32,377 nt of DNA, from contig CAJWPE010000013.1 in NCBI GenBank assembly GCA_913045625.1, forward strand, positions 1 through 32,377. Direction: 5' to 3'. Positions within the stretch are counted from its first letter, which is position 1, and every line of letters starts with the position of its first letter. Source of the stretch: an uncultured Chloroflexota bacterium. GTDB lineage: Bacteria; Chloroflexota; Dehalococcoidia; Lucifugimonadales; UBA826. Of the stretch, positions 2,542 to 20,449 are shown piece by piece. The position numbers and the translations under genes are program-made. The notes below the pieces were generated by a model that saw nothing but the letters and a program-made list of their open reading frames with translations, made no database searches and had not been told where the DNA came from.

Positions 2542-2553
2542 CTTAATCCTTAT

Positions 2554-3189: not shown

Positions 3190-3199
3190 TTATTTTTCC

Positions 3200-3499
3200 T
3201 TAAATCCACCAATCAGGGTAGATAATATTTAACACATCAATAGCAACAGTTAATGAACGTATAAAAAAGTATGCGGCCGCACCTAGGAGAACAAACCCAA
3301 ATCCATATATAGGTAATCTTAATTTAGTAAATACAGGGGGTAATTCATGGGCCTTCACGTGCGACGGGATCACATTATGAGTTAAAACCATATTTAGTGC
3401 AAAAAGCACCATAAACAACACAAAAAAACAGAAGTTGTCTACAACAATATTTAACTGCACCCAATACTCTCGGGTTATGTATAGAGGATCTATTTCCAA
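3200..3499 (-). CDS. Small two-helix membrane protein at the head of the ActAB-like operon; family not recognised
   Basis: A 99-residue protein with two hydrophobic helices, about residues 17-39 and 63-82. They are joined by a His-containing loop (HNVIPSHVKAHELPP), and the tail is short and aromatic (PDWWI). It starts at TTG 3499 with AAGG six bases upstream, and ends ten bases before the pentahaem cytochrome, so it is the first gene of the respiratory operon as seen here. I do not recognise the family. By position and size it might be an accessory subunit of the complex, such as a counterpart of the small membrane subunit ActG, but no sequence motif shows this. The three loop histidines at or near the membrane surface could bind a haem or metal; that is speculation. 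Coding is supported by tight packing, the ribosome-binding site and clean membrane-protein composition. Confidence 0.7.
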   Translation of the reverse strand: MEIDPLYITREYWVQLNIVVDNFCFFVLFMVLFALNMVLTHNVIPSHVKAHELPPVFTKLRLPIYGFGFVLLGAAAYFFIRSLTVAIDVLNIIYPDWWI

Positions 3500-3647
3500 T
3501 CTGTACCTTAACCTTATAGATAATTTGTTACAAAGATATACTTAATTCTACTACAATTACCTCTCTCAACGAGTGAAAATTATCACATTCGACTTTTTGA
3601 GTGTCAAGCACAAAAAATTGATTGGTAATAATATAAATTGAATTAAA

Positions 3648-3653
3648 TATAAT
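3648..3653 (+). promoter_or_regulatory. Candidate -10 element for ribF-tyrS
   Basis: A perfect TATAAT lies in the 211-base gap between the divergent respiratory operon and ribF. It would give a leader of about 50 bases. No good -35 sits at 16-18 bases; TTGATT at 3618-3623 is 24 bases away, too far. In such AT-rich DNA a lone TATAAT is weak evidence. The rest of the 3500-3710 gap shows no gene or strong hairpin. Confidence 0.3.
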
Positions 3654-3710
3654 AGATGATTAAACTAATAAAATATTCGCATTTATAGGCACAAAACAGG
3701 CATAATAGTT

Positions 3711-4637
3711 ATGGGACACCTAAATGATCTCAAAAATCATAGCAACAAAAAAGCATCTTTATTAGCTATCGGCGTATTCGACGGTGTACATCTAGGGCAC
3801 CAACACCTGTTTAGTAATCTTATAAAAACATCAAAAGATAACAATCTATTATCAGCTGTTTTAACTTTTAAAAATCATCCAGGTACAATTTTAAACCCGG
3901 ATTTTCATGCCCAACTCGTAACCACTACCCAAGATAAGATCAAATTAATAGAATCAACTGGGGTAGACTTTGTTGTTCCTATTTCCTTCGATAAAGAATT
4001 ATCGCAATTAAGTGCAAAATCATTCATAGAATTACTGCAAAAACACTTGAACATGAAAGGACTTTCTGTAGGCCCTGATTTCCATATGGGAGCAAATCGT
4101 GAAGCAGATGTTTCTAAATTAAGCATACTGGGCAAGGATATGGGTTTTTTTGTAAACACCCCATCTTTATTTGAAAAAACCAAAATCCCCGTAAGAAGCT
4201 CTTCAGTAAGAAGCTCATTATTATCAGGAGATATCGAGTTAGCAAATTCTATTTTAGGAAGAAAATTCTCATTATCAGGAGAGGTTATAAAAGGATTTCA
4301 AAGAGGCAAAGATTTAGGGTTCCCAACAGCTAATTTATCATTAGATGTCAACCAAATAATTCCTAAAAATGGAATTTATGCTACTCAAGTAACCCTCAAT
4401 AACCATTTGTTCAACGGAGCTACAAGTATTGGGACTAACCCAACATTCAACAATGAGCATAAATCCATAGAAACATTTATTTTGGATTTTAATCGTAATA
4501 TCTATGGAGAGAACATTACAGTAGAGTTTATCTCTAAGATTAGGGACGAAGAGACATTTAATTCTACAGAAGATTTAATCATCCAAATGGAAAACGATGT
4601 CAAAAAAATTCAACAAATTTTAAAAATAAATAATTAG
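3711..4637 (+). CDS. ribF: Bifunctional riboflavin kinase / FMN adenylyltransferase (FAD synthetase)
   Basis: A 308-residue protein that makes FMN from riboflavin and then FAD from FMN in the cytoplasm. The N-terminal FMN adenylyltransferase half has the nucleotidyltransferase motif GVFDGVHLGHQ (21-31), the GPDFHMG segment (121-127) and a Ser-rich SSSVRSSL motif (163-170) matching the family's second ATP site. The C-terminal flavokinase half has GKDLGFPTAN (199-208) and IGTNPTF further on. The length is normal for the two-domain enzyme. The start is ATG 3711; the nearest ribosome-binding match (AGG at 3698-3700) is weak and rather far. tyrS follows after eight bases, so the two are probably co-transcribed. 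The flavin product has no special link to its neighbours. Confidence 0.93.
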   Translation: MGHLNDLKNHSNKKASLLAIGVFDGVHLGHQHLFSNLIKTSKDNNLLSAVLTFKNHPGTILNPDFHAQLVTTTQDKIKLIESTGVDFVVPISFDKELSQLSAKSFIELLQKHLNMKGLSVGPDFHMGANREADVSKLSILGKDMGFFVNTPSLFEKTKIPVRSSSVRSSLLSGDIELANSILGRKFSLSGEVIKGFQRGKDLGFPTANLSLDVNQIIPKNGIYATQVTLNNHLFNGATSIGTNPTFNNEHKSIETFILDFNRNIYGENITVEFISKIRDEETFNSTEDLIIQMENDVKKIQQILKINN

Positions 4638-4645
4638 GAAAAATC

Positions 4646-5833
4646 ATGCCCCTATACGAAACTGATGACATACTACAACGAGGTGTTGAAGAAATTATTG
4701 TAAAAGATGAATTCTTAAAAAGTTTCAATCAAAATTCACCACTAAGACTTAAAATGGGATTTGATCCTAGTGCACCAGATATTCATTTAGGGCATGCAGT
4801 TGGATTAAGAAAACTTCGACAACTTCAAGAACTTGGTCACAAAGTTGTTTTAATTGTTGGAGATTGGACAGCTCAAATAGGAGACCCCAGCGGAAGATCT
4901 CAGACTAGAAAAATGTTAACTTCTGAAGAAGTTAATTCAAATGCTCAAACATACCTAAACCAATTCTTTAAAATCGTTGATAAAGATAGAACAGAAATAA
5001 GATGGCAAAGTGAATGGTTCGGAGACTTTAATTTAACAAACGTTATTGAATTAACTAGTAATTTTACAGTTGCTCAAATTTTAGCCCGAGACGACTTTTC
5101 TAAAAGATTTAAAAGTAATCAACCCATCTCTGTTACAGAGTTGTTATACCCATTACTCCAAGCATATGATTCCTTAGCGATTGACTCGCAAGTTGAATTT
5201 GGAGGTACTGACCAAAGATTCAACTTACTTTTAGGAAGAGAACTACAACAAATCCACAATAAAAATCCTCAACATTGCTTTATAATGCCACTATTACCAG
5301 GCACCGACGGAATCCAAAAAATGAGTAAAAGCCTAGGTAATTATGTTGGCATTAACGAAACCCCAAATGACATTTTTGGCAAAATAATGTCAATTCCTGA
5401 TTCTCTAATAACCTCTTATTATTATTGGTTGACTGATATTCCAACAAACCAAATTAAAGAAATTGAAAAAGATTTAGAGAACAATTCAACTAACCCCATA
5501 AATACCAAAAAAAATGTGGCATTTGAAATAGTTTCAAATTTCCACTCACACAGGGAGGCAGTGGAAGCTCAATCATATTTTGAAAAAACTGTACAAGAAG
5601 GAGAAATTCCTACAGATATTCCTGAATATAATTTAAATCCTGATTCTCAAAATAACTTAAGCAATATTTTGGTTGAAGCCGGCATTTGCCAATCATCAGG
5701 AGAAGCAAAGAGACTAATCTCTCAAGGTGCAATTAAATTAGAAAATTCCACTATCTCTAGCAATTTAAAAGAACAAGAACTTCAGTCAGGAATTTTAAAG
5801 GCCGGAAGAAGGAAATATCTCAGATTTATATAA
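4646..5833 (+). CDS. tyrS: Tyrosyl-tRNA synthetase
   Basis: A 395-residue class I aminoacyl-tRNA synthetase that charges tRNA-Tyr. The HIGH signature appears as HLGH (47-50), preceded by MGFDPSAPDI, and the KMSKS loop is exact at 225-229. The substrate pocket is seen in VEFGGTDQRFN (183-193). The C-terminal 60 or so residues have the S4 RNA-binding pattern (SGEAKRLISQGAIKL). The overall pattern matches the TyrZ-like bacterial subgroup. Start ATG 4646 has AGGA at the right distance and overlaps nothing. It forms a two-gene unit with ribF. The 95 bases after it hold a very short ORF and a direct repeat, described separately, and no clear terminator. Confidence 0.95.
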   Translation: MPLYETDDILQRGVEEIIVKDEFLKSFNQNSPLRLKMGFDPSAPDIHLGHAVGLRKLRQLQELGHKVVLIVGDWTAQIGDPSGRSQTRKMLTSEEVNSNAQTYLNQFFKIVDKDRTEIRWQSEWFGDFNLTNVIELTSNFTVAQILARDDFSKRFKSNQPISVTELLYPLLQAYDSLAIDSQVEFGGTDQRFNLLLGRELQQIHNKNPQHCFIMPLLPGTDGIQKMSKSLGNYVGINETPNDIFGKIMSIPDSLITSYYYWLTDIPTNQIKEIEKDLENNSTNPINTKKNVAFEIVSNFHSHREAVEAQSYFEKTVQEGEIPTDIPEYNLNPDSQNNLSNILVEAGICQSSGEAKRLISQGAIKLENSTISSNLKEQELQSGILKAGRRKYLRFI

Positions 5834-5860
5834 ATAATTACTTTCTTTATCATTATGTAC

Positions 5861-5889
5861 AGGAGTGATAAATGAGTGATAAAATTTAA
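5861..5889 (+). other. Possible five-codon upstream ORF with its own ribosome-binding site
   Basis: AGGAG at 5861-5865 lies six bases ahead of an ATG (5872) that opens a five-codon frame (MSDKI) ending at TAA 5887-5889. It sits 40 bases upstream of the aminotransferase start, which itself has a poor ribosome-binding site. The 11-mer GTGATAAATGA occurs at 5865-5875 and again over the aminotransferase start (5922-5932). It could be a leader ORF, a relic of a duplicated translation start, or chance. Confidence 0.25.
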
Positions 5890-5928
5890 TATCCAAAGTT
5901 ATTTTTTACTGAGAAACTATGGTGATAA

Positions 5929-7014
5929 ATGAAAGATACTAACTTAAGAATTCCAGGACCTGTTCCATTACCACAAGAGACTTTAGATTTGATGTCAAGT
6001 CAAATGATCAATCATAGAGGCCAAGAATACGCCGACATGTTAGATCAAATGACTAATAATCTTAAAACTGTTTTAATGACAAAATCGGATGTTTATTTCA
6101 TCACCGCATCTGGTACTGGTGGCATGGAGTCGGCAATAGTAAACACTACTTCACCAGGAGACAAAGTTCTATCTATTTCTATTGGATGGTTTGGGGAAAG
6201 ATTTGCAGAAATAGCTGATGCTTATGGATGTGAAACTGTAAAAATATCTTTTGAATATGGTGATTATGCTGATACCCAAATAATAAAAACCGCCTTAAAT
6301 GAAAATCCTGATATTAAAGCAGTTTTAATTACTCACAATGAAAGCTCTACAGGAGTAAGAAATCCTCTCAAAGAAATATGTGAAATCATAAAAAACAATT
6401 CAGACGCGTTAATTTTAGTAGATGCAGTTTCCTCAGCTGCTGGATCAATCATATCTACAGATGCATGGGGCATCGATGTAGTAGCAACTGCTTCACAAAA
6501 ATCTTGGATCGCTCCTCCAGGCATTGCAATGGTTTCATTCTCTGACAAAGCATGGAAAGCTTACGACAAATCAAAATGCCCCAAATATTACTATGACATG
6601 AATCAATACAGAGAATATGCAGAAATAGGACAACCTCCTTTTACACCTTCTCTTACTACTATGTACACACTTCACGATTCATTAAAAAAAATGGTGAACG
6701 AAGGAATGGAAACCATATTTGATAGGCATTCTAGAATCGCACAATTTACTCGTGACCTTGCAAAAAATATCGGTTTAGATATTTTACCTGTAGAAGCTTA
6801 TGCGTCAGACACAGTAACCGCTATCAAGCTCCCAGAAAATGTTGACGGTAAGATGATAGTCAAGGAAGTAGAAAAAAATTACAACATCGTTCTTGGCGGA
6901 GGACAACAAAAACTAGCCGGTAAAATTATCAGAATAGGACATATGGGCTGGATAAACCAAGAAGATATTGAATCATCAATTGTAGCTTTGAAGGAAACTC
7001 TAGATAGACTATAA
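5929..7014 (+). CDS. Class V PLP-dependent aminotransferase, alanine/serine-glyoxylate aminotransferase-like
   Basis: A 361-residue fold-type I PLP enzyme. The opening IPGPVPLP and the segment MINHRGQEY are typical of the serine-pyruvate / alanine-glyoxylate aminotransferase branch. ASGTGGMESAI (60-70) is the phosphate-binding loop, D165 in LILVDAVSS binds the pyridine nitrogen, and K191 in TASQKSW is the expected Schiff-base lysine. A C-terminal RIGHMGW motif is also a family mark. The likely reaction is amino transfer to or from glyoxylate or pyruvate; the exact substrate (serine, alanine, ureidoglycine) cannot be told from sequence alone. Start ATG 5929 has only a weak ribosome-binding match. 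It converges on ftsH, and the two stop codons are adjacent. Confidence 0.85.
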   Translation: MKDTNLRIPGPVPLPQETLDLMSSQMINHRGQEYADMLDQMTNNLKTVLMTKSDVYFITASGTGGMESAIVNTTSPGDKVLSISIGWFGERFAEIADAYGCETVKISFEYGDYADTQIIKTALNENPDIKAVLITHNESSTGVRNPLKEICEIIKNNSDALILVDAVSSAAGSIISTDAWGIDVVATASQKSWIAPPGIAMVSFSDKAWKAYDKSKCPKYYYDMNQYREYAEIGQPPFTPSLTTMYTLHDSLKKMVNEGMETIFDRHSRIAQFTRDLAKNIGLDILPVEAYASDTVTAIKLPENVDGKMIVKEVEKNYNIVLGGGQQKLAGKIIRIGHMGWINQEDIESSIVALKETLDRL

Positions 7015-7028
7015 CTAGTTAGTTATAG
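7009..7028. terminator. Small inverted repeat spanning two convergent stop codons
   Basis: CTATAACT (7009-7016) and AGTTATAG (7021-7028) form an 8-bp stem with an AGTT loop. It contains the aminotransferase stop (7012-7014) and the ftsH stop (7015-7017). It is AT-rich and lacks a T-run on either side, so it is at best a weak bidirectional terminator or mRNA end stabiliser. Confidence 0.25.
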
Positions 7029-8838
7029 AAGCAGGGGCAGAATTCAATAGATTCGTTAATTCTTCTCCCTCTACAGATTCGTGTTCAACTAAATATTTAG
7101 CCAATGCTGATAACTTGCCCAAATTTTCATTTAATAATTTTTTTGCAACTTCATATGCATTCTGGACTAAACCATGAACTTCATCATCAATAGTTTCTGC
7201 AATGGTGTCACTGTAATCTCTTTGTTCAGAAATTTCTCTACCCAAGAAAACTAATTCCTCTCTTTTACCAAAAGTTCTAGGACCTAGTTTTTTGCTCATT
7301 CCAAGCCTAGTAATCATAGCCCTAGCAATATTTGTTGCTTGTTCTAAATCATTTCCAGCGCCAGTGGTAACCTCATAGAACATTATTTCTTCAGCTACTC
7401 TTCCTCCCAAAGCAGCAGCTAATCGAGCTTCAAGTTGATTTTGTGTAACTAAACTAGTCTCTTCTTCAGGTAAAAATCTAGTATGACCGCCGGTTTGGCC
7501 TCTTGCAACAATTGTGACTTTAAATGGGGGATCAGCATATGGTAAAAGATGAGCCACTAATGCATGTCCAGCTTCATGGTAAGCAACCATTTGCTTTTCT
7601 TTTTCGCTAATATTTTTATTCTTTTTTTCAGGCCCAGCAATCACTCTATCTATAGATTCTGCAATTTCTTCATACACAATCTTTTTTTTGTTCCTTCTCG
7701 CAGATAATATTGCAGCCTCATTAAGCAAATTCATCAAATCTGCCCCACTGAACCCTGAGGTTTGTTTAGCTACTGCTTCCATATCAATTTCTTCATCAAT
7801 AGGCTTACCTTTAGCATGCACACTCAAAATCTGCTCTCTACCCTTAACATCGGGATTATCTAAAGTAACTCTTCTATCAAATCTTCCAGGTCTCAAAAGA
7901 GCAGGATCTAAGATGTCAGGACGGTTAGTTGAAGCAAGCACTATGACATTAGCACCTGTATCAAATCCATCCATTTCAACAAGAATTTGATTTAATGTTT
8001 GTTCACGTTCATCATGCCCACCGCCTAATCCAGCACCTCTCTGCCTACCAACAGCATCAATTTCATCAATAAATACTATACAAGGAGCATCTTTCTTAGC
8101 TTGTTCAAATAAATCCCTAACTCTAGATGCGCCAACTCCTACAAACATTTCCACAAATTCGGATCCACTTATAGAAAAGAATGGCACTCCAGCTTCACCT
8201 GCAACAGCTCTAGCCATTAATGTTTTTCCTACACCGGGGGGTCCCATCAAAAGAACACCGCGAGGAATTTTTGCACCTAATTCAAGAAATTTTTGAGGAG
8301 ACTTCAAAAATTCAACTACTTCTTGTAACTCTTCTTTAGCTTCATCAACTCCTGCAACGTCAGTAAAACTTACTTCTGGATTATCTGTCTCGTATTTTTT
8401 TGCTTTAGATTTTCCAAAACTAAAAGTTTGACTAGTACTTCCTTGGGCTTGTCTCATCATGAAAATAAGCAATCCACCAAAAAACAATATCGGTAACAAG
8501 TTGAAGAAAATACCAATAACACTTCCTAAACCACTATTACCTTTTACTGATATATCAACAGAATTTTGAGATCCGGATTCATTTAATTGTTCCACAATAC
8601 TTGAACCAGGTTCTTTTCTAGATGTGTAGCTATTACCATCGAATCCTTCAGCAGATAAATTATCTCCACTAACATCAATTGATTTTAATTTTCCAGCATT
8701 AGCCAAAGATATCATTTGACTTACAGGAATTTCAGATGAAGTTGCAAATGAAGGACTAAATACAGTCACAAACACTGCGAGCATACCTGCTGCTATTAAC
8801 ATGTAAACAAAGATTCCCTTGAAAGAGCCTAATTTCAT
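7015..8838 (-). CDS. ftsH: ATP-dependent zinc metalloprotease FtsH
   Basis: A 607-residue membrane AAA+ protease that degrades damaged or short-lived membrane and cytosolic proteins. Two N-terminal membrane helices (about 7-30 and 104-128) flank a small outer domain. The AAA domain has Walker A GPPGVGKT (199-206), Walker B IVFIDE (254-259), the pore loop MFVGVGA (231-237) and the second region of homology around 303-320. The zinc site HEAGH is at 421-425, with the third ligand expected in [11 protein letters not shown] downstream. Length and order are standard. Start ATG 8838 has GGAG five bases upstream. It is transcribed divergently from the OmpR-type regulator, sharing a 129-base control region. 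Confidence 0.96.
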
Positions 8839-8873
8839 ATTTTCTCCATGAGATTTTTTTGTATCGGTCTTAC

Positions 8874-8903
8874 ATTTTACAGTAGTTGATCTTTACGGGT
8901 AAA
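8874..8903 (-). promoter_or_regulatory. Candidate ftsH promoter
   Basis: On the minus strand TTTACC (8903-8898) and TAAAAT (8879-8874) are separated by 18 bases, matching the -35 and -10 consensus in four and five positions. They lie about 40 bases ahead of the ftsH start. The -35 overlaps the palindrome at 8891-8904. Confidence 0.4.
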
Positions 8904-8904
8904 G
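8891..8904. promoter_or_regulatory. 14-bp palindrome between divergent promoters
   Basis: CTTTAC-GG-GTAAAG is a perfect dyad. It overlaps the proposed -35 of ftsH and lies 25 bases upstream of the extended -10 of the regulator gene. The position suits an operator acting on one or both promoters. No binding protein can be named. Confidence 0.3.
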
Positions 8905-8928
8905 GAGACATTTAAATTAAATACAATT

Positions 8929-8937
8929 TGCTATAAT
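8929..8937 (+). promoter_or_regulatory. Extended -10 promoter of the OmpR-type regulator gene
   Basis: TGCTATAAT is a perfect extended -10 (TGn plus TATAAT at 8932-8937). Transcription should start near base 8944. That places the GTG at 8941 upstream of the transcript and favours ATG 8968 as the translation start, with a leader of about 24 bases. Confidence 0.6.
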
Positions 8938-8967
8938 TGGGTGAAATTTAATTTAACAGATAAACAT

Positions 8968-9642
8968 ATGACATCATTGCAATATAGTTTAGATAACAGT
9001 ACTGCTAACAAAGTCACAGCAATACTATCTCAAGAAAATATCAAAAGTTTGATAATTCAAACAAACGACGATGCTGCAAAATTCTTAGCAGAAAGTACCT
9101 CAGCAGAACTAGATATAATTATTATTGACGTTGCTTCAATTTCATATGATGCATTTCAGAAAATGATTATTTCATCCAATAATCACGGATTTCCTTCTTT
9201 AGCAATTGTTTCTCCTGAATCTCTACTGATGTTAAAAGATTCTGAAATTTCTGACTTTATTACTACTCCAATTAAATTTTCTGAATTAATTACTCGATGT
9301 CAAAGACTGACAAAAAATCAAATTAATACCTCAGACGAAAAAATCATCAGATTTGGAGATTTATTTATTAATCCGTCTAATTATGAAGTTAAAATGAAAG
9401 GGGAGAGGGTTAATTTAAGGTTCAAAGAATATGAGTTACTATTACTACTAGCATCTAATCCTGGAAGAGTTTATGACAGAGCATCATTATTAAATCAAAT
9501 ATGGGGTTACGATTATTTCGGCGGAACGAGAACTGTAGATGTGCACATCAGAAGATTAAGAAGCAAAATAGAAATTTTGCCAGAAACAGAATATATTGAA
9601 ACAATTTGGAATGTTGGGTACAGATTTGTAGAGAACAAATAA
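8968..9642 (+). CDS. OmpR/PhoB-family DNA-binding regulator with degenerate receiver domain
   Basis: About 224 residues from ATG 8968; a GTG at 8941 would add nine residues but lies ahead of the predicted transcription start. The C-terminal half is a good winged-helix domain: LRFKEYELLLLLASNPGRV, LLNQIWGYDYFGGTRTVDVHIRRLRSK split over two helices, then ETIWNVGYRF. The N-terminal half has receiver-like length and one candidate phospho-acceptor (D54 in IIIIDVAS). It lacks the acidic pair near the start and the conserved lysine: the usual ITKPF is replaced by ITTPIKF. No histidine kinase is adjacent. Inference: an orphan regulator that may work without phosphorylation, as GlnR-type proteins do. 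lipB follows after three bases, and ftsH is divergent. Targets are unknown. Confidence 0.8.
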   Translation: MTSLQYSLDNSTANKVTAILSQENIKSLIIQTNDDAAKFLAESTSAELDIIIIDVASISYDAFQKMIISSNNHGFPSLAIVSPESLLMLKDSEISDFITTPIKFSELITRCQRLTKNQINTSDEKIIRFGDLFINPSNYEVKMKGERVNLRFKEYELLLLLASNPGRVYDRASLLNQIWGYDYFGGTRTVDVHIRRLRSKIEILPETEYIETIWNVGYRFVENK

Positions 9643-9645
9643 TTC

Positions 9646-10299
9646 ATGTACAAAATTATGTCCAAATTTTATGGTCAGCTAGCATATAAAAAAGCAATGA
9701 CTATCCAAAATTCTCTAGTGAACTCCACTAAACAAAACGGTGAATTTCATTTAATGCTACTAGAACATCCTGATACAATTTCTATGGGTGTTCGGAGTGA
9801 AACTTCAGAAATACTAACGGATTTAGAAAAAATTTCTAAATTAAAAATATCAATTCAAAATTCTGATCGTGGTGGTCAAACAACATTCCATAATCCCGGA
9901 CAATTAGTAGCTTACCCAATCATAGATTTAAATAAAATTAACATGAAACCGAAGGATTATGTTGCAAAGTTACAACTCTCTATAATTAAAACTTTGACTC
10001 ACATAGGAATAAATGTAGAAGCAAAAGAAATGCCAATTGGTGTATGGGTAAACACAAAAAAAGTTGCTTCTATCGGAGTGAGAGTTAAACAAGGGATTAC
10101 TTCTCACGGAATTTCTCTAAACGTAAATAATGATTTAAAAAGATTCGAACACATTATCTCTTGTGGAATAAAAGATAGTGTTCCAACTTCTATACAAAAT
10201 GAAACCAACCAACTCTATTCTATACATGAAGTAGCTACATTATTCTCTGAAAATTTTGCAAGTGTACTTGAGTTGAAACAAGTCAATGTTAAGAGTTAA
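9646..10299 (+). CDS. lipB: Octanoyl-[acyl-carrier-protein]:protein N-octanoyltransferase
   Basis: A 217-residue LipB that moves octanoate from acyl carrier protein onto lipoyl domains, the first step of lipoate synthesis. The family motif RGGQTTFHNPGQL (75-87) matches the RGGxxTxHxPGQ consensus, with Asn in place of the usual Gly at 83. The catalytic pair is seen as K139 in TKKVASIG and C173 in ISCGI, and SHGISLNV (153-160) is the substrate-binding strand. It starts three bases after the regulator stop, at ATG 9646 or possibly ATG 9658, so the two are probably co-transcribed. Its last 11 bases overlap the end of the convergent phoU. LipA, its usual partner, is not in the window. Confidence 0.92.
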   Translation: MYKIMSKFYGQLAYKKAMTIQNSLVNSTKQNGEFHLMLLEHPDTISMGVRSETSEILTDLEKISKLKISIQNSDRGGQTTFHNPGQLVAYPIIDLNKINMKPKDYVAKLQLSIIKTLTHIGINVEAKEMPIGVWVNTKKVASIGVRVKQGITSHGISLNVNNDLKRFEHIISCGIKDSVPTSIQNETNQLYSIHEVATLFSENFASVLELKQVNVKS

Positions 10300-11032: not shown

Positions 11033-11815
11033 TTAGCTAAATCTTCCAGTAATATATTCTTCTGTTCTTGTATTAGATGGATTACTAAATATTTTCTGAG
11101 TATCATCATGTTCTACAAGATACCCTGACCTGTTCTCTCCAACCATAAAAAAAGCTGTCTCATCAGAAACTCGAGCTGCTTGTTGCATATTATGAGTCAC
11201 GATAACAATAGTTACATGATCTTTGAGTTGTTTAATTAATTCTTCAATAGCTAAGGTTGCTATAGGATCTAAAGCAGAAGCAGGCTCATCCATCAACAAA
11301 ACCGCTGGCTCAACCGCTAAAGCTCTTGCTATGCATAAACGTTGTTGCTGACCTCCTGAAAGAGTAAAAGCACTATTGTTTAACCTATCTTTAACCTCAT
11401 CCCACAGAGCTGCTTGGTTTAAAGCTCTTTCAACTGCCTCATCATAATTTCCTTTAAAACCATTTACTTTCAACCCCCATGCTATATTCTGGTAAATTGT
11501 TTTTGGAAAAGGATTTGGTTTTTGAAAAACCATTCCAATCCTTGATCTGATTTCAGTAGCATCAATTTCACCACCGTACAAATCTACACCTTCAAACATT
11601 ATTTTACCTTGAACAGAAGCACCTACTATCAAATCATTCATTCTATTCAGGCATCTCAAAAATGTGCTTTTGCCACATCCAGAAGGACCAATTAATGCAG
11701 TAATAGAATTCTGGTTAATATCTATATCAACATCTTTAACGGCATTAAATTCACCGTAAAAAACATTCAATTTTTGTGCGCTTAAAACTACTGTTTGATC
11801 TATTTCCGAAGTCAT
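11033..11815 (-). CDS. pstB: Phosphate ABC transporter ATP-binding protein
   Basis: A 260-residue ABC ATPase that powers high-affinity phosphate import. Walker A is GPSGCGKST (43-51), the Q-loop is VFQKP (96-100), the signature is LSGGQQQR (152-159) and Walker B with the D-loop is [12 protein letters not shown] (173-184). The switch histidine is in [13 protein letters not shown] after Walker A and [10 protein letters not shown] are marks of the PstB subfamily. The length is normal. It starts at ATG 11815, four bases after the pstA stop, behind a GAGGAG that lies inside the end of pstA; this is consistent with translational coupling. The protein acts on the cytoplasmic face with the PstC-PstA pair. 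Confidence 0.97.
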
Positions 11816-11819
11816 TAAA

Positions 11820-12719
11820 TTACTCCTCTGATCTTTTTTGATACTTATTTCTCAAGAAAACTGCGATAGCATTCATACTCAAAAGCAGAACTAACATCAC
11901 TATTATTCCCGCAGCTGCTAAACCTCGGAATTCATCTTGTGGTCGTGATACCCAGTTATAAATTTGAATAGGTAATACTGTAAACCTATCCATAGGATGA
12001 CTTGGAATAAAGGTCAGATAAACCAAAGCACTAATCGCAATTACTGGAGCAGCTTCACCAATTGCTCTAGACATAGACAATATAGTTCCAGTCAAAATAC
12101 CTGGAATTGCTGAAGGCAAAACAACACCTTTTATGACTTGCCATTGATCTGCCCCCATAGCATAAGCACCTTCTCTGTAAGAGTTGGGAACTGCTCTAAT
12201 TGCTTCTCTAGAAGCCAGTATTACTATCGGAAGTACTAATAGAGACAATGTCATAGCACCCGCCAAAACACTTCTACCTAAAAATTGGTCAGATGTCCCA
12301 ATATAATAAACAAACAAAGACAACCCCAATAACCCATATACTATAGAAGGAACTCCGGCCAAATTGGCAACGTTAATCTCAATAATTCGAGTAAATAAAT
12401 TTCTAGGCGCATACTCTTCAAGATAAATTGCCGCACAAACTCCTATTGGAACAGTAATTAACGCAGTCATAAACATTAACCAAACTGTACCCATTAAAGC
12501 AGAAAACAAACCAGCTTCTGCTGGTTTTCTTGAAGGATAATCAAATATGAAATGCCAACTCATCCAAGGTAGGCCACCTGTAACAACATCAATAATTAAC
12601 ACAATCAATCCCACTATTCCAACTAATACAGATAGTAAAAAAAGTACATAAACAATATTTCCAATTATGACTCTTGAACGCCTATTGGGGTTGATAGAAT
12701 GATGTGAATTAGTGGACAT
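11820..12719 (-). CDS. pstA: Phosphate ABC transporter permease PstA
   Basis: A 299-residue membrane permease with six predicted helices, the first at about 18-46. The ABC-coupling (EAA) loop is visible as [25 protein letters not shown] split around residues 180-205, with the conserved AxG and [12 protein letters not shown] near 220-228 is typical of PstA. Together with PstC it forms the phosphate channel. It starts at ATG 12719, two bases after the pstC stop, and ends four bases before pstB. The short hydrophilic N-terminus ([13 protein letters not shown]) is cytoplasmic. Confidence 0.95.
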
Positions 12720-12721
12720 TT

Positions 12722-13636
12722 TTAATATTCCTCTCTAAATCGTGTAACAACCCAAAATCCCAAAAGATTCATCAATAATGTCAAAGCAAACAAGACTAAA
12801 GCAACAGCAAATATAGTGTTGTATTCAAGTGATCCTACAGGAGCTTCACCTAATGCCAACTGAACAATATAAGCTGTCATAGTCTGAATGCTTTCTGTAG
12901 GATCAAAAGTCATTTTAGGTGTCGCACCAGCTGCAATTGTCACTAGCATGGTTTCACCAATGGCTCTAGATATAGCAATGATAAACGCTGCAATAATTCC
13001 AGATAGTGCAGCTGGAACCACTATACGTAAACTAACTTCATATCTTGTGGCACCGAGCGCATATGCCCCCTCTCGCAAACTTCTGGGAACAGCTATCATG
13101 GCATCCTCACTTAGTGAGGAAACCATTGGAATGATCATGACACCCATAACTATCCCAGCACTAAGAGCATTGAAAATTATTAAATCGGGCAAAAATACCT
13201 GTAAAAGTGGAGTAACAAAAGTAAGAGCAAAATAACCATAAACAACTGTAGGAATTCCCGCCAACACTTCCAAAATAGGCTTAATTATTCTTCTAAGCCA
13301 ATCTGGAGCGTATTCAGAAAGAAAAATTGCTGTCGACAATCCTATAGGGATAGCAACCATAGCAGCAATAACTGTAACCAACAAAGTGCCTGAAACTAAA
13401 GGAAGTACACCATATGACCTAGGTTTTAAAATAGGTGTCCATCTAGTTCCAGTAAGAAATTCAATTATAGAAATTTCTTTAAAAAACTCATATGCCTGGT
13501 AACTAAGTGTTAACAAAATAGCCAGCGTAGTAAGAATAGATAGGCTAGCGCAAGCCAAAAAAATGTATTTTACTATTGAGCCCTCTAAACTTGGGCCTCT
13601 AGATCTTTTGGTAAATGAAGATTGATCTTCAATCAT
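12722..13636 (-). CDS. pstC: Phosphate ABC transporter permease PstC
   Basis: A 304-residue membrane permease, partner of PstA. A first helix at about 24-52 is followed by a periplasmic loop holding FLTGTRWTP, a family mark. Further helices then lead to the EAA loop [16 protein letters not shown] (about 184-199), and [10 protein letters not shown] follows. The cysteine-poor, glycine-rich helices and length are normal. Start ATG 13636 has only a weak GAGAG-type ribosome-binding site. It is separated from pstS by 263 bases that hold a strong hairpin and an apparent pseudogene relic, so its expression may be tuned below that of pstS. Confidence 0.95.
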
Positions 13637-13723
13637 GTTTTCTCTCAGTAGATAAATTAGAAATCACTACAACATGAATTTTGATGATTTTCAATAGAAA
13701 TATATTAATAACAGATTAATGTA

Positions 13724-13879
13724 TTAATCTAAAATATCATTAATTAGTTCATCGACTTTTGTGTGAATTTGATCCCGGATATTTCTAGTTAATTCTATCG
13801 ATAGTCCCTTGGGATCATCGATACCCCAATCCTCAATGTAGGCATAGAACCTATTACTAGTGAAAGGGCTTCTCCCCTT
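13724..13879 (-). pseudogene. Relic resembling the C-terminus of a low-molecular-weight tyrosine phosphatase / ArsC-type protein
   Basis: Between pstS and pstC one minus-strand frame stays open for 51 codons (13879 to the TAA at 13724-13726) with no ATG, GTG or TTG to start it. The translation is protein-like rather than random: it contains YIEDWGIDDPKG, then an amphipathic helix with IRDQIHTKVDELINDIL. The order (D/H)W-x-x-x-DP, a short gap, then RD-x-I-x-x-x-V-x-x-L is how I remember the C-terminal end of LMW-PTP/ArsC proteins, which are often encoded near pst genes. The N-terminal catalytic CX5R loop and about 90 residues would be missing; only 20 bases separate the frame from the pstS stop. 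A chance ORF remains possible. Confidence 0.45.
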
Positions 13880-13889
13880 TCACTAGTAA
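13854..13889 (-). promoter_or_regulatory. Strong 15-bp hairpin just after pstS
   Basis: TTACTAGTGAAAGGG (13854-13868) pairs perfectly with CCCTTTCACTAGTAA (13875-13889) around a 6-base loop, starting 10 bases after the pstS stop. Neither side carries a T-run, so a simple intrinsic terminator is unlikely. The probable role is to stop 3' decay and keep pstS mRNA more abundant than pstCAB, as is common for binding-protein genes. Partial termination is the alternative. Confidence 0.7.
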
Positions 13890-13899
13890 ATAAATTAAT

Positions 13900-14868
13900 C
13901 TATTTCATCAAAAGTGACTTGTTATTGTCATAAACAGCTTCACCAGAAGACACATATCCAACTTCGTTAGTTAAATCTGGACCTACCTGCATATAGTAAT
14001 CAACAAAAGTTTTTACTTCTGGCCTAGTTTTATATGCGGACTTATTAACATAAATGAACAAGGGTCTTGATAATGGAGTGTATTCACCTGAAGGAATAGT
14101 TTCTTTACTAGGTTGTACGCATCCGTCACCATTATCAACACCAAGTAATTTCAACTTTTCAGAGCTCTCAACATAGTAAGCATAACCAAAATAACCTAGC
14201 GAACCATTAGAACCTGAAATTCCTGATATTAGTACGTTATCGTCTGCACTAGCGGTGTAATCTGCTCTTGAAGCTTGAGCTTCACCATTAATTTCTTCAG
14301 TAAAGTAATCAAATGTTCCGGAGTCAGTATCAGGTCCAAAAAGATTCATCTTTTGATCAGGAAAATCAGATCTTACTTGATTCCAGTTAGTTACATTAGA
14401 TCCTGGTTCCCAAATTTGCTTAAGTTCTCCGACTGTTAAACAATCGATCCAATCCATATTAAGATTAACCATTACTGATAAGCCATCAGTTCCGAGTCTC
14501 AATTCGTCATATGTAATGCCATTTTCGTCAGCAATACTAGACTCTTTGGGATTTTTCATATGTCTTGAAGCATTTGAAATGTCTGTTTCACCCACAATAA
14601 ATCTTTTAAATCCTCCACCAGTTCCAGAAACACCAACATTAACCCGAACTTTTGGATATAGCTTATTGAATTCTTCGGCTACAGCTTCAGAAATCGGGTA
14701 AACAGTTGATGAACCATCAATTTCTACAGTCCCTTCCATTTTTGAGTCTTCTTGTTGGGATGTAACAGTAGCATCAGGTTCTTCTGTAGAACATGCAATT
14801 ACAAATGCAGTGAATGAAGCAAATAGCGAAACCAAGAAATACAATTTTAAACTGCTAATATTTAACAT
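13900..14868 (-). CDS. pstS: Phosphate-binding lipoprotein PstS
   Basis: A 322-residue extracytoplasmic phosphate-binding protein. The N-terminus is a lipoprotein signal: a hydrophobic run ending in FVIAC, with Cys26 as the probable lipid-bearing residue, then a Ser/Glu/Thr-rich linker. The mature part has the phosphate-binding loops DGSSTVYPI (51-59) and GVSGTGGGFKRF (78-89), plus SDADNV-like contacts and GPDTDSGTFDYF further on, all PstS marks. The length is normal. Start ATG 14868 lies within an exact tandem duplication of the ribosome-binding region. A Pho-box-like repeat lies about 85 bases upstream, and a strong hairpin follows the stop. It delivers phosphate to PstCA. Confidence 0.96.
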   Translation of the reverse strand: MLNISSLKLYFLVSLFASFTAFVIACSTEEPDATVTSQQEDSKMEGTVEIDGSSTVYPISEAVAEEFNKLYPKVRVNVGVSGTGGGFKRFIVGETDISNASRHMKNPKESSIADENGITYDELRLGTDGLSVMVNLNMDWIDCLTVGELKQIWEPGSNVTNWNQVRSDFPDQKMNLFGPDTDSGTFDYFTEEINGEAQASRADYTASADDNVLISGISGSNGSLGYFGYAYYVESSEKLKLLGVDNGDGCVQPSKETIPSGEYTPLSRPLFIYVNKSAYKTRPEVKTFVDYYMQVGPDLTNEVGYVSSGEAVYDNNKSLLMK

Positions 14869-14994: not shown

Positions 14995-16371
14995 TTATTG
15001 AACCAATTGGAGTGTAAATGAGAAAACACTACCCTCACCAATTTGACTTGTTACAGATACTGACCCACCCTGAGTTTGAGTTAAATGTTTGACTATAGCG
15101 AGTCCAAGACCAGTACCAGAATCAGATCTAGATTTATCAGCCTTATAAAATCTTTCAAACAAATGAGGAATATGTTCCTCATCGATTCCTTGTCCAGAAT
15201 CTCGAATGTTAATTTTCACAAATTGGCCATCAATTTCAGTAGAAACACTAATTTCCCCATCTTTATCAGTATATTTGATTGCATTTTCTATCAAATTAAC
15301 AAATATTTGGATAATGTGATCTTTAGTGCCATTAACAACAATCTCAGAATCTGCAAGGTTTCTTATTTCAGGATGATCACCATAAAACCTATTCTTAGTC
15401 ATATTAATAGACTCTTCGATGATTGAAACTAGATTTAAATGATCCATTTCAATTTGATCTACACCACTTTCTATTCTAGAAAGTTCTAATAAATCATTGA
15501 TGAGCAGTGTCATTCGAGTGACTTCTCCCGAAATTCTTTCTAAATATCTATCTCGTACACTTTCATCATTAATTCCACCTGATTCCAATGTTTCAAGCAT
15601 TACAGAAATTGAAGTAATTGGACTTCTTAATTCATGAGAAACATTACTCACAAATTCTCTTCTAGTATTATCCAACTGGTAAAGATCTGAGAGATCGTGA
15701 AAATTCAAAAGTATAGCTTTTTCATTCTGAAAATTTAATGGGGTAGAAGAAACAAAAAAAGTTTTACTTAAATCAAATAATTCTATTTCTAGATTTAAAG
15801 TTTCGTTAGATTCCCTAGATGAATTTACTAATTGGAGAATTTGATGATATCTAACCACATCAGACAATCGTCTTCTTTTAAAACTTTGACCTGTAAAATT
15901 AAAAAGGGAAAGAGCTGAATTATTCATCAAATCGATCTCATTTGAACTATTCACTACCATCACAGAATCATCCATATTGTCCAAAACTACTGATAATGTT
16001 TCTGCATCCAAATTCATTTGACTAAGATTAATTTCCATTTTTTGTGCCATTTCATTAAAAATGGAAATTAATTCATTTTGTTTTCCTTTTTTAGTTGCTG
16101 GTAACGTGAAATCATATGACTCTGATTTGAGATGTTCCATACCATCTGTCAACAGATCTAAAATATATTTTTGATCATTAATAACTTTTATACTTATTCC
16201 AGCAATTACAAAAAATAATATGATTACCAAAAAAGAGAAAAAAACTTGGAATAATTGAGAGTCAACAAAAAACACTAATAAAAAACTTGCTGCAAATGCA
16301 GACAAAATTAAAAAGCTAGGCAAAATAGTCAAAACTAATTTAACTAAATCAAAATTCCTCACTATTTTCAC
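14995..16371 (-). CDS. phoR: Phosphate-regulon sensor histidine kinase PhoR
   Basis: A 458-residue membrane histidine kinase. Two adjacent helices (about 10-35 and 41-62) leave almost no outer loop. Next come a HAMP-like linker, a PAS domain (about 122-225, with VLDNMDDSVMVV), the dimerisation/phospho-acceptor helix with H246 in SHELRSPI, and the ATPase domain with NLIENAIKYT, DSGQGI and GTGLGLAIV. The lack of a sensor loop is usual for PhoR, which reads phosphate through PhoU and the Pst transporter. The start is GTG 16371, sharing GTGA with the phoB stop, so the pair is translationally coupled. pstS follows after the Pho box, which supports assigning this kinase to phosphate rather than another signal. 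Confidence 0.9.
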   Translation of the reverse strand: MKIVRNFDLVKLVLTILPSFLILSAFAASFLLVFFVDSQLFQVFFSFLVIILFFVIAGISIKVINDQKYILDLLTDGMEHLKSESYDFTLPATKKGKQNELISIFNEMAQKMEINLSQMNLDAETLSVVLDNMDDSVMVVNSSNEIDLMNNSALSLFNFTGQSFKRRRLSDVVRYHQILQLVNSSRESNETLNLEIELFDLSKTFFVSSTPLNFQNEKAILLNFHDLSDLYQLDNTRREFVSNVSHELRSPITSISVMLETLESGGINDESVRDRYLERISGEVTRMTLLINDLLELSRIESGVDQIEMDHLNLVSIIEESINMTKNRFYGDHPEIRNLADSEIVVNGTKDHIIQIFVNLIENAIKYTDKDGEISVSTEIDGQFVKINIRDSGQGIDEEHIPHLFERFYKADKSRSDSGTGLGLAIVKHLTQTQGGSVSVTSQIGEGSVFSFTLQLVQ

Positions 16372-17063
16372 CCATCGAATCTATATCCGATTCCTCTAAT
16401 TGTTACCAACCTGGATGGGGAACTAGGATCATCCTCAATTTTTTCCCTAATCCAACGAACATGAACGTCAACTGTTCTGATATCTCCAATATACCGATGA
16501 CCCCAAAGCTTTTCTAAAATTTGATGTCTAGATAAAGCTTTTCCTTGATTTGAAGCTAAAAGATATAGTAATTCAAATTCTCTAGGCTTTAGATTAATCT
16601 CTTGATTATCTATTTTTACTCTATGACTTTTTGTGTCAATACTTAAATTCCCAATAATAATTAATTCATCATCAGAAAGGGTAGATGATGATAAGTTTGA
16701 AGATCTTTTAAGCATATTTCGAATTCTTACAACCAATTCCCTCATACTAAAAGGTTTAGTAATGTAATCATCAGCTCCTAATTCAAGCCCAACAACTCTA
16801 TCAATCTCTTCACCTTTAGCAGACAACATAAAAACAGGTAAATCAAGATCTTTCCTAATCATTCGACAGACTTCAAATCCATCTAACTTAGGTAACATCA
16901 CATCCAACAAAACCAAATCAGGCATGATAGTTCTAGCTTTATTCAAGCCATCTTCTCCGTCATTAGCTGAATAAACATCAAAACCTTCCTGAGAAAGACT
17001 ATAAACCACTGCCTCTCTTATATTTTCTTCATCTTCAACTACTAAAATTTTAGGATCTGACAT
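16368..17063 (-). CDS. phoB: Phosphate-regulon response regulator PhoB (PhoP-type)
   Basis: A 231-residue OmpR-family response regulator. The receiver is intact: acidic pocket E10-D11-E12, phospho-acceptor D54 in VLLDVMLP, and the conserved K103 in YITKPF. The C-terminal winged helix has LKPREFELLYLLASNQGKAL, then RTVDVHVRWIREKIE and TIRGIGYRFDG. It should bind the repeats ahead of pstS once phosphorylated by PhoR. It starts at ATG 17063 behind an AGG, 66 bases after queA, and overlaps phoR by four bases. The gap to queA holds one TTAAC but no phased repeat set, so autoregulation is not clear. Confidence 0.92.
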   Translation of the reverse strand: MSDPKILVVEDEENIREAVVYSLSQEGFDVYSANDGEDGLNKARTIMPDLVLLDVMLPKLDGFEVCRMIRKDLDLPVFMLSAKGEEIDRVVGLELGADDYITKPFSMRELVVRIRNMLKRSSNLSSSTLSDDELIIIGNLSIDTKSHRVKIDNQEINLKPREFELLYLLASNQGKALSRHQILEKLWGHRYIGDIRTVDVHVRWIREKIEDDPSSPSRLVTIRGIGYRFDG

Positions 17064-17129
17064 AAAAAGTTAACCTAATTCAAAATTTTCTAATACTAAA
17101 AATACACCAAAATTTTTATTGATACCATT

Positions 17130-18170
17130 CTAAATAATCAGCATCGCATCACCAAAACTGTAAAATTTATAATTATTTGTAACAGCCACTTTATAGGAAT
17201 CAAGAATAATTTCTGTAGATGATAATGCTGAAGTTAACATTAATAACGTAGATTTTGGAAGATGGAAATTGGTAATCAGTCCATCTGCTATTTGAAACTC
17301 ATAACCTGGAGTAATAAATATGTCAGCCCAACCTGTTCCACCTTTAATATTTTCATAACCTCCTGAAATATCAGCTACATTTTCTAATAAACGTAAAGCT
17401 GTTGTACCAACAGAAATGACTCTTCTACCCTCATTTTTAGCATTTTTAATTTTTATAGCTGCCTCATCGCTTAATTCCCAATACTCCGAGTGCATTTGAT
17501 GATTTTCTAAATTTTCATCCTTAACTGGCCTAAAACTATCCCATCCAACATGTAATGTCACAAACAGAGTCTCAATTTTTTTAAGTTTGATTTGCTCTAA
17601 AAGATTTTGAGTAAAATGCAATCCAGCTGTTGGCGCTGCAACACTACCTTCATGTTTTGCATAAACAGTTTGATAATTATCTGACGTACCCACTGATTTT
17701 TTTATATAAGGAGGTAACGGTAATTCTCCCAACTTATAAATCAAACTATCGTCATCTATCCGAATAATTCTAGAACCAGAATCATTCACTTGCTCAACTA
17801 CTCCATGAATCTGATTCTGTTGATTGCCTATAACAAATTTTGAACCTAACCTCATTCTTTTACCTGGCTTCACTAAAGAAGTCCATAAACCGTCTTCGAT
17901 TTTGCTAAGCAATAAAATTTCAATCGGTTTTAATGATTTTTTATCAGTTCCGTAAAGTCTCGCTGGAAACACTTTAGTGTCATTAAACACCAATAAATCA
18001 CCTTCTTGAAGAAATTTTAATATTTCAAAAAATTTAACATGATTTAAATTGCCAGATTTTTTATCCAAAACCATCAATCTACAATGATCTCTAGGTTCAG
18101 CAGGAAATTGAGCTATAGATGATTGAGGTAAGTCATAATTAAAATCTGATGTTTTGAATTTGCGCGCCAT
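17130..18170 (-). CDS. queA: S-adenosylmethionine:tRNA ribosyltransferase-isomerase
   Basis: A 346-residue QueA that transfers and rearranges the ribosyl part of S-adenosylmethionine onto preQ1 in tRNA, giving epoxyqueuosine. Family marks in order are SDFNYDLPQSSIAQFP near the N-terminus, DHCRLM, LLVFNDTKVFPARL, GELPLPPYI, AAPTAGLHFT, VTLHVGWDSFRPV, and the C-terminal TNFHLPKSTLLML and FGDAML. I place the start at ATG 18170 because it fits the family N-terminus and clears the ubiE stop by four bases. A TTG ten codons upstream (18200) has no ribosome-binding site and would overlap ubiE. Other queuosine genes are not in the window. Confidence 0.94.
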   Translation of the reverse strand: MARKFKTSDFNYDLPQSSIAQFPAEPRDHCRLMVLDKKSGNLNHVKFFEILKFLQEGDLLVFNDTKVFPARLYGTDKKSLKPIEILLLSKIEDGLWTSLVKPGKRMRLGSKFVIGNQQNQIHGVVEQVNDSGSRIIRIDDDSLIYKLGELPLPPYIKKSVGTSDNYQTVYAKHEGSVAAPTAGLHFTQNLLEQIKLKKIETLFVTLHVGWDSFRPVKDENLENHQMHSEYWELSDEAAIKIKNAKNEGRRVISVGTTALRLLENVADISGGYENIKGGTGWADIFITPGYEFQIADGLITNFHLPKSTLLMLTSALSSTEIILDSYKVAVTNNYKFYSFGDAMLII

Positions 18171-18174
18171 GAAA

Positions 18175-18894
18175 TTACTCGTTTTTTTGACCCACAACAA
18201 TAGCTACCGTACCAAAAGCCAATTTCTTCACTACCGGTTTCTTAAAACCTTTTTTCGTCATCAAAACAGCTAATTGTGTAGAAGTTAAAAAATTAGAAAC
18301 TGATTGAGGTAAATAAGTATACGCTTCACGGTCACCTGCAAAAATCGAACCAATTCTAGGAGTGATTTTTTCAAAATACAGTGGAAATAATCTCGACATA
18401 ATCTTCCCTTCTGGTTTTACTATTTCTAATATAACTAAATTGCCTCCGGGCACTAAAACTCGCAATAATTCTTCTAAAGCTGTAGATAAATCTACAAAAT
18501 TCCTAACTCCAAATCCGATAGTAATAGATTCAAAACTGTTATCTGAAAAAGGTAATTCGTGAGCATCTGCAACTACTGGAACAAATTTTTTATCAAAATT
18601 TCTTTTTTCAGATTTAATTTGACCTATATTCAACATTTCAACAGAGAAATCTAAACCAACTACTTTATTTGCAATTTTTTGGTTTAAAATTTCAAAAGCA
18701 AAATCTCCTGTTCCTGTAGCAACATCTAAAAACATTCCTGTTTCTGATTTTTTCAGATATTTTGTTGCTTTTTTTCTCCATGAATAATGCATTCCCGCAG
18801 TCATAATAGTATTCAATAGATCATATCTCCCAGAGATTCTATTAAACATATTCGATACAAATCGTGACTTATCTTTTCCGCGTAAATTAACCAC
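18175..18894 (-). CDS. ubiE: Demethylmenaquinone/2-methoxy-6-polyprenyl-benzoquinol C-methyltransferase
   Basis: A SAM-dependent methyltransferase of the UbiE/MenG family, about 239 residues. Marks are MFNRISGRYDLLNTIMTAGMHYSWR near the N-terminus, the SAM loop FLDVATGTGDFAF, FGVRNF in the middle and LEIVKPEG toward the C-terminus, the last two being typical of the family. The likely reaction is the final methylation of demethylmenaquinone. The menaquinone assignment is inference from the probable Chloroflexota host; the quinone cannot be told from sequence. I prefer GTG 18894, which has GGGG five bases upstream. ATG 18912 would add six residues but has no ribosome-binding site. It overlaps the end of nnr by eight bases. 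Confidence 0.9.
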   Translation of the reverse strand: MVNLRGKDKSRFVSNMFNRISGRYDLLNTIMTAGMHYSWRKKATKYLKKSETGMFLDVATGTGDFAFEILNQKIANKVVGLDFSVEMLNIGQIKSEKRNFDKKFVPVVADAHELPFSDNSFESITIGFGVRNFVDLSTALEELLRVLVPGGNLVILEIVKPEGKIMSRLFPLYFEKITPRIGSIFAGDREAYTYLPQSVSNFLTSTQLAVLMTKKGFKKPVVKKLAFGTVAIVVGQKNE

Positions 18895-20449
18895 TAGTAC
18901 CCCTGTAAACATTGATGACTTCAGGAATTTTATTATATAAATCTGAAGCTACTAAACCTGAGGTACCTTTAAACTCTTTTTCAATTTTGGCTATTTCAGA
19001 ATGAAGAAAAACTGCTAATTCTGATGATTTTTCCAATGATAACCCTTGAGAAATAAATCCTGCGATCATACCTGCTAAAACATCCCCAGTTCCTGCAGTA
19101 CTTAATAGAGGATTAGACTGAGGGTTTATCAATATTTCACCATTTGGAAATCCAATCAGTGTAAAAGCTCCTTTTAGAACTATGATCTTGTTCCAATAAT
19201 TTGCAAAGTGCCTGACAACTTCAACTCTATCGTTTTGAATGTCCTCAATACTCATTCGTGTCAATCTAGACATCTCTTTTAAATGGGGAGTCAAAACTGC
19301 TTTATGTTTAAATCTATCCCACCATTTATAGGATTTAGATAAAATATTTAAAGCATCTGCATCTATCACAAAATTTGCTTTTTCATCAGATGAAAACAGC
19401 ACATTTTGCACAAATTGGACCTTATTTTCAGAAACTCCAAGCCCACAACCTAGTAAAATCGAAGAATATTTTTTTATCTCTGATGCAATTTTTACATTAT
19501 CAAATGGAGAAACTTTTAATTCACCACTTTTATCAACTGGTAATGAAAAAATGATCGACTCAGGTGTCAAACTTACAAATTGTCCCACAATGTTTGATGG
19601 AATCATTCCTTCAACAAGTCCTGAGCCAACTCTACTTGCTGCATTAGCAGCAAGAGCAACAGAACCAGGAAAATTTTTCGAACCTCCAATAATCAAAGTT
19701 TTTCCAAAAGAACCCTTATTTGAATTTAGTTTTCTGACAGGAAAATCTTTAAAAGACGGAGCAGAAATTGATGTGGTTAAAATATTCACATCAAATTCTT
19801 GATTTAAGCCAATATCTAGTACATTTAATTCACCCACATATTCAACTGACAATGGATTGTAATGCCCTAATTTAGGAAATCCTAACGCAAGAGTAAAATC
19901 AGCAACAATAGTAAATGGGTCACATTGGCCATTATTTGGATTTAACCCCGAAGGAATATCTACAGATATTATTGTATTTGTAGAATGATTCTCCTTAATA
20001 ATTTGAATAAATTGTCCTAACTCAAAATTAATTGGTCTAGACAATCCTGTACCAAAAATAGCATCAACGATCACATCAGATTTATCAATTAAGTCTACAT
20101 AAGTTTGTTGAATTTGATTGTCAGAAAAATCGTATATTGTAGATTTCTGATCATCGTACAATTTCTTGAATTTCATCAATTCTGTATCATTTGAAGATCT
20201 TGGTCGTAAAATTACCAAAGAAACATCATAACCCTGAGATTTCAAATTTGATGCAGCTACAATTCCGTCAGATCCATTAGTTCCAGAACCTAATAAAAAA
20301 GTGATTTTATTAGAATTTTCAGGAAATTTTTCAGCTATGAAATCCGCAATGAGTAATCCAGAATTATTAATAAGAGTTTCGTCGGTAATTGCATTCTGAA
20401 AAGAAAAGTTTTCTATTGCTTGCATTTGAAGCCTAGAAACAATTTTCAA
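18887..20449 (-). CDS. nnr: Bifunctional NAD(P)H-hydrate repair enzyme (epimerase plus ADP-dependent dehydratase)
   Basis: A 520-residue fusion that repairs hydrated NADH and NADPH. The N-terminal YjeF_N epimerase domain (about 1-215) has LLGSGTNGSDGIVAA, where the second Gly of the usual GNNGGDG is Ser, and VDAIFGTGLSRP and VDIPSGLNP. The C-terminal kinase-like dehydratase domain (about 230-510) has GSFGKTLIIGGSKNFPGS, DADALN, VLTPHLKEMSRL and STAGTGDVLAGMIAG. The start is TTG 20449, sharing TTGA with the dtxR stop and with AAGGAAG four bases upstream. ATG 20425 is the fallback. Tight coupling to dtxR and ubiE marks a small operon at the tail of the ribosomal cluster. Confidence 0.92.
   Translation of the reverse strand: MKIVSRLQMQAIENFSFQNAITDETLINNSGLLIADFIAEKFPENSNKITFLLGSGTNGSDGIVAASNLKSQGYDVSLVILRPRSSNDTELMKFKKLYDDQKSTIYDFSDNQIQQTYVDLIDKSDVIVDAIFGTGLSRPINFELGQFIQIIKENHSTNTIISVDIPSGLNPNNGQCDPFTIVADFTLALGFPKLGHYNPLSVEYVGELNVLDIGLNQEFDVNILTTSISAPSFKDFPVRKLNSNKGSFGKTLIIGGSKNFPGSVALAANAASRVGSGLVEGMIPSNIVGQFVSLTPESIIFSLPVDKSGELKVSPFDNVKIASEIKKYSSILLGCGLGVSENKVQFVQNVLFSSDEKANFVIDADALNILSKSYKWWDRFKHKAVLTPHLKEMSRLTRMSIEDIQNDRVEVVRHFANYWNKIIVLKGAFTLIGFPNGEILINPQSNPLLSTAGTGDVLAGMIAGFISQGLSLEKSSELAVFLHSEIAKIEKEFKGTSGLVASDLYNKIPEVINVYRGTSG

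Follow-up and report, generated by a model that had tools for sequence, protein, structure and literature searches.

The open frame between pstS and pstC is almost certainly the 3' end of an arsC gene that lay inside the pst operon and was inactivated by a single internal deletion of 316 bases. The window (the whole stretch of DNA analysed, 32,377 nucleotides) belongs to genome G000, and it was compared with two other genomes of the same SAR202 genus. The contig of G001 matched QCNV01000001.1 (SAR202 cluster bacterium AG-426-M11) at 100%, and G002, a third species, matched JAKUTY010000001.1 (SAR202 isolate ALOHA_A2.5_119); in both cases the two records were taken to be the same genome. The relic shows a known enzyme decaying in the ordinary way. 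What is unusual is how well the loss is documented in an uncultured marine group, with the whole gene, two broken copies and the junction all available.

The pst operon and the frame in the pstS-pstC gap

The minus strand of the window carries open reading frames for phoU, pstB, pstA, pstC and pstS, named from the NCBIfam models whose cut-offs they exceeded. The features of the pstS-pstC region are as follows.

13900 to 14868, minus strand: pstS open reading frame (TIGR02136, 289.1 bits; cut-off 206.6)
13854 to 13889, minus strand: hairpin 3' of pstS, 15 pairs and a 6-base loop (predicted fold, -24.2 kcal/mol)
13838 to 13879, minus strand: first 14 codons of the 51-codon frame (KGRSPFTSNRFYAY), not ArsC (comparison with G001)
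13843 to 13845, minus strand: surviving arsC start codon (alignment to G001 and translation)
13795 to 13845, minus strand: 16-codon out-of-frame reading from the old arsC ATG (translation)
13724 to 13845, minus strand: arsC residue from the old ATG to TAA, 122 bases with 316 lost inside (2 differences in 122 from the G001 gene minus bases 7-322)
13837 to 13839, minus strand: deletion junction, ACA triplet (ACA at nucleotides 7 and 323 of G001 arsC, a difference of 316)
13724 to 13837, minus strand: ArsC codons 109-145 with the stop codon, no longer in the frame of the old start (97% identity; last 106 bases identical)
12722 to 13636, minus strand: pstC open reading frame (TIGR02138, 272.1 bits; cut-off 196.45)

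Elsewhere in the window, positions 8941-9642 encode an OmpR-like DNA-binding protein, for which Pfam at E <=0.001 gave only a C-terminal Trans_reg_C domain, with no receiver domain among the first 150 residues.

Between the pstS stop (13900) and the pstC start (13636), translation of the minus strand from 13879 to 13724 gave 51 open codons ending in TAA, none of which was ATG, GTG or TTG. The codon list and the open reading frames thus bore out the startless frame described in an initial annotation made from the letters of the window. The same annotation read this frame as the C-terminus of an LMW-PTP/ArsC protein, a reading that the profiles and the alignment with G001 upheld for the last 37 codons, which correspond to ArsC residues 109-145, and not for the first 14. 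The latter, KGRSPFTSNRFYAY, result from reading the hairpin arm, the spacer and the former start region in a different frame.

The profile search that the annotation had proposed returned matches to LMW-PTP/ArsC proteins from PF01451, TIGR02689 and the PDB, and the profile matches were confined to the C-terminal part of the frame. Residues 12-45 aligned with positions 110-143 of the 144 in PF01451 (16.7 bits, short of the gathering score of 23.2; E 0.0087) and residues 15-46 with positions 95-126 of the 126 in TIGR02689 (E 1.5e-6, 28.5 bits, below the NCBIfam cut-off of 157.6), while the best PDB sequence match was 2myu, a glutaredoxin arsenate reductase (E 1.6e-4). Scores below whole-protein cut-offs are expected, since the remnant is a fragment. 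As this case shows, an open frame that lacks a start codon and lies in an operon gap may be a genuine relic even with a Pfam score under the curated threshold. The translation, IEDWGIDDPKG..., retains the C-terminal D-W and D-P motifs and the final helix; D111, W112, D116 and P117 (G001 numbering) are shared by 33-34 of the 34 ArsC rows in the alignment.

An intact arsC in a genome of the same genus

The pstS-pstC gap of G001 contains a whole arsC of 145 codons. The order in the DNA is pstS (truncated at the contig end), hairpin, complete arsC and pstC, with the PF01451 match at G001:C1:90295-90675 and the neighbouring pstC at 89275-90183. The prediction that a relative would still carry the gene intact at this place was thus confirmed, and the window remnant is 97% identical to residues 109-145 of the G001 protein. 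The intact gene was found in this gap in one genome only, G001, which is 78% complete and whose contig ends inside pstS.

The G001 protein scored 81.3 bits against PF01451, well over the gathering score of 23.2, and has the CX5R motif (C17, R23) together with two more cysteines, C94 and C101, which we take to be redox partner cysteines. C17, R23, C94 and C101 are conserved in 34, 34, 34 and 33, respectively, of the 34 aligned ArsC rows. The scores against the NCBIfam models were all below the cut-offs: TIGR02689, 77.6 bits (cut-off 157.6); NF010053, 61.2 bits (cut-off 215); and TIGR02691, 56 bits (cut-off 174.3). By its sequence, the protein belongs to the superfamily of the arsenate reductases, with an exact subtype and function that these scores do not settle. 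A survey with PF01451 found matches in 22 of 60 genomes at E <=1 and in 16 of 60 above the cut-off, the window genome being counted in. In the tree of the 34 ArsC rows, the G001 sequence stood beside that of G246, a genome of another family (support 93/90), on long branches, a position that does not settle the source of the gene.

The deletion junction

When bases 7-322 (316 bases) were removed from the G001 arsC, the remaining sequence differed from the 122-base residue in the window at only two positions by exact comparison, and the final 106 bases were the same at 106 of 106 positions. The same deletion model gave seven mismatches in 122 bases for G002, two of them at positions shared with the window, and the G002 junction was identical in position. 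An ACA triplet is found at both ends of the stretch that is deleted relative to G001. The exact comparison, on which the junction is based, agreed with a second gap alignment; the placement given by a first MAFFT gap alignment was wrong, having paired the hairpin with arsC sequence, and was discarded.

Everything between codon 3 and codon 108 is missing from the window copy. The CX5R active-site loop, which the initial annotation had correctly supposed to be lost, falls within the 316 deleted bases, as do the counterparts of C94 and C101. Moreover, 316 leaves a remainder of 1 on division by 3, so the frame was shifted; the ATG was kept, out of frame, and there is no complete start-to-stop arsC frame in the window copy. 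With the CX5R loop and both cysteines deleted and the frame shifted, the window locus is unable to make ArsC.

The 3-base microhomology may have given rise to the deletion, through either slippage or end joining, and its occurrence in two species may reflect either common descent or transfer along with the pst genes by homologous recombination. The intact enzyme would reduce arsenate that comes in with phosphate, the arsenite would leave through the ACR3 pump that the window genome still encodes, and the loss of arsC would probably be tolerated where arsenate is low relative to phosphate.

Several other accounts of the gap were weighed. The frame could be non-coding pstS-pstC sequence that has the look of a protein by chance, in keeping with the Pfam match, which is a weak one by itself (E 0.0087, short of the gathering score), and with the first 14 codons, which are indeed not ArsC. 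This account is refuted by G001, whose pstS-pstC gap contains an intact arsC that ends in the same 106 bases (106 of 106 identical), and its probability is negligible. Misassembly of the window genome, which is a draft of 96 contigs with 7.47% contamination, is hardly more credible as the origin of the short form, because the separate genome G002 has the same junction in a 193,614-base contig, with further substitutions of its own.

It is somewhat less far-fetched, and still very improbable, that the residue remains functional, as a small protein made from a non-standard start or as a pstC leader kept by selection. Both G000 and G002 have kept the frame open, and positions 13637 to 13829 have barely changed among the three genomes. 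However, the frame lacks ATG, GTG and TTG, five changes in 13724-13845 occur in G002 alone, one of them turning W112 into C, and the low divergence extends over the whole pst stretch, so that it is no sign of selection on the residue.

The hairpin downstream of pstS

The initial annotation held that the hairpin had taken the place of the lost catalytic part. This was rejected, as G001 has the stem alongside the intact gene: there the stem core is unchanged, the loop is longer and arsC follows (-19.0 kcal/mol), and the stem is also present, with one loop base changed, in G002 (-25.4 kcal/mol). The hairpin therefore predates the deletion, barring an independent origin of the stem in each line. 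The fold of positions 13637-13920 had a z-score of -4.95 relative to shuffled sequences. The possibility that the hairpin is a genome-wide repeat was also rejected, the pattern (no mismatches, loop of 4-14) having been found at one place in the window genome, palindromic on both strands.

Gap folding covered 30 pstC loci, 27 of them outside the genus, of which three lacked a pstS match and were left out. The remaining 24 gaps were 30-275 bases long, and strong stems were seen in several of them, in sequences of varying base composition folded unshuffled. The hairpin is a separate feature, one that perhaps sets the level of the pstS message relative to the downstream genes.

Probable exchange of pst genes between species

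The three genomes differ little over one stretch of the operon.

11033 to 14741, no strand assigned: low-divergence stretch among three genomes, pstB to pstS, up to the point where the G001 contig ends (identity per 500-base bin and fourfold sites)

In 500-base bins, G001 and the window were 74-90% identical up to 10.5 kb; from 11.0 kb to the contig end in pstS, identity was 93-98%. At fourfold degenerate sites, 33-57% differed in eight genes from 286 to 10299, 40% in phoU, 25% in pstB, 7% in pstA, 14% in pstC and 5% in pstS. Between G001 and G002, the figures were 3% in each of pstB, pstA, pstC and pstS, 33% in phoU and 43-62% in eight neighbouring genes. Since fourfold sites are synonymous, the low divergence fits recombination and not selection on the proteins.

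The odd-one-out genome also switches along the operon. When differences confined to a single genome were counted, with no outgroup, G001 stood alone at 29 sites and G000 at 6 in pstS, G001 at 6 and G000 at 25 in pstC, and G001 at 16 and G000 at 67 in 11033-12719, which places the arsC relic near a switch in ancestry. To judge from these patterns, the pst genes look as though they were swapped between species by recent homologous recombination, which would mean that such genes pass from one species to another. Alternatively, the low pst divergence might come from a chimeric contig in the assembly of G001; the arsC relic is unaffected either way. In the remainder of the window, identity to G002 was 95-99% per 1000-base bin at 16000-20000 and 4000-6000 and 83-92% in several nearby stretches; these high and low patches look like further mosaic ancestry.

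The initial annotation regarded the loss as recent. This is plausible, but dating is complicated by the signs of interspecies exchange, and the order of the deletion and the exchange is not fixed by these data. A more speculative proposal, which we put forward as a possibility and consider rather doubtful, is that the pst operon in this SAR202 genus is an exchangeable allele, recombined between species with or without a built-in arsenate reductase, so that species trade protection against arsenate for a shorter operon as the local arsenate/phosphate ratio changes.

Arsenic genes elsewhere in the genus and the order

A profile search of the window genome found no second place matching PF01451, up to E 10. 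The genome encodes an ACR3 arsenite pump (TIGR00832, 403.1 bits; cut-off 282.8), and PF01758, the Pfam family of ACR3, had matches in all three genomes of the genus, that in G002 being a piece at a contig end; the ACR3 model was applied to the PF01758 protein of the window genome only.

At E 1e-6, matches to the G001 ArsC were found in 69 of 250 genomes of the order, including the remnants in the window genome and G002, and in none of the 13 genomes of the family outside the genus. Weak PF01451 matches occurred in G005 (E 0.24) and G007 (E 0.068), on contigs other than that of pstC. An arsC match lay by pstC at 3 of the 30 pstC loci (E 1e-6), all three of them in the genus.

At two other loci of the order arsC lies near a pstS relative and outside the pstS-pstC gap. 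In G118 (L085:3-1838), the end of pstS, a MIP-family channel and arsC are consecutive on one strand. In G157, from another family of the order (L092:6-2624), a response-regulator-like frame, named from its translation only, is followed by arsC and pstS on one strand. The arsC matches at L078 and L086 (G087 and G193, same order) each have one internal TAA, and may be decaying copies or sequencing errors.

The window genome also encodes a PF03960 (Spx/ArsC-like) protein with an in-frame TGA (L098:1471-1827; G000:C3:40601-40885), which occurs twice in G002 (L099, L100) and was not found in G001. The TGA corresponds to the first residue of a U-x-x-C motif. A tRNA-Sec was detected over the gathering score in all three genomes of the genus, and the stretch after the TGA folds slightly better than shuffled sequences (z -1.76). 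The protein scored best on Spx models, below every curated NCBIfam cut-off, and is a candidate selenoprotein, probably of a known kind; a U-x-x-C 'arsenate reductase 2' appears in a list of marine selenoproteins (PMC2398784). It may serve as a second ArsC in place of the lost one, although its best scores are on Spx models.

Comparison with known systems

Among literature titles on SAR202 with arsenate reductase, or with phosphate and arsenic, none names a loss of arsC in pst, and a literature search combining SAR202, homologous recombination and single amplified genomes was without result. The closest known counterparts are the redox-coupled arsenate reductases of the LMW-phosphatase fold (PF01451; TIGR02689, NF010053, TIGR02691; PDB 3t38, 2l17, 1jf8). 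Their C-terminal end is matched by the window residue, and the G001 gene is alike over its length, with CX5R and two conserved cysteines. The window copy differs in that codon 3 to codon 108 is missing and no enzyme is made.

Arsenic islands of 5-71 kb have been described that carry pst and phn genes along with the aioBA arsenite oxidase genes (PMC3834237). As outlined in that source, the islands resemble the present case in the clustering of arsenate and phosphate genes, whereas the SAR202 genus has a single arsC inside pst.

In SAR11, LMWPc_ArsC and an adjacent aquaporin are reported in most strains of one ecotype and in none of another, and the frequency of the gene is inversely related to phosphate, according to the sections of PMC6426599 that deal with it. 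The gene row in G118 resembles this ArsC-aquaporin pair as described there. The SAR11 and SAR202 genes share the enzyme fold, their occurrence in marine bacteria and a patchy distribution among close relatives. By the same account, the SAR11 gene has an aquaporin as its neighbour and one ecotype lacks it, while the SAR202 gene lies within pst and has left visible remains; the link to phosphate comes from the SAR11 data only. By analogy, ArsC may protect the SAR202 genus against arsenate taken up with phosphate. The comparison, as far as the SAR11 account goes (PMC6426599), suggests that SAR202, like SAR11, has the LMW-type ArsC in some close relatives and lacks it in others.
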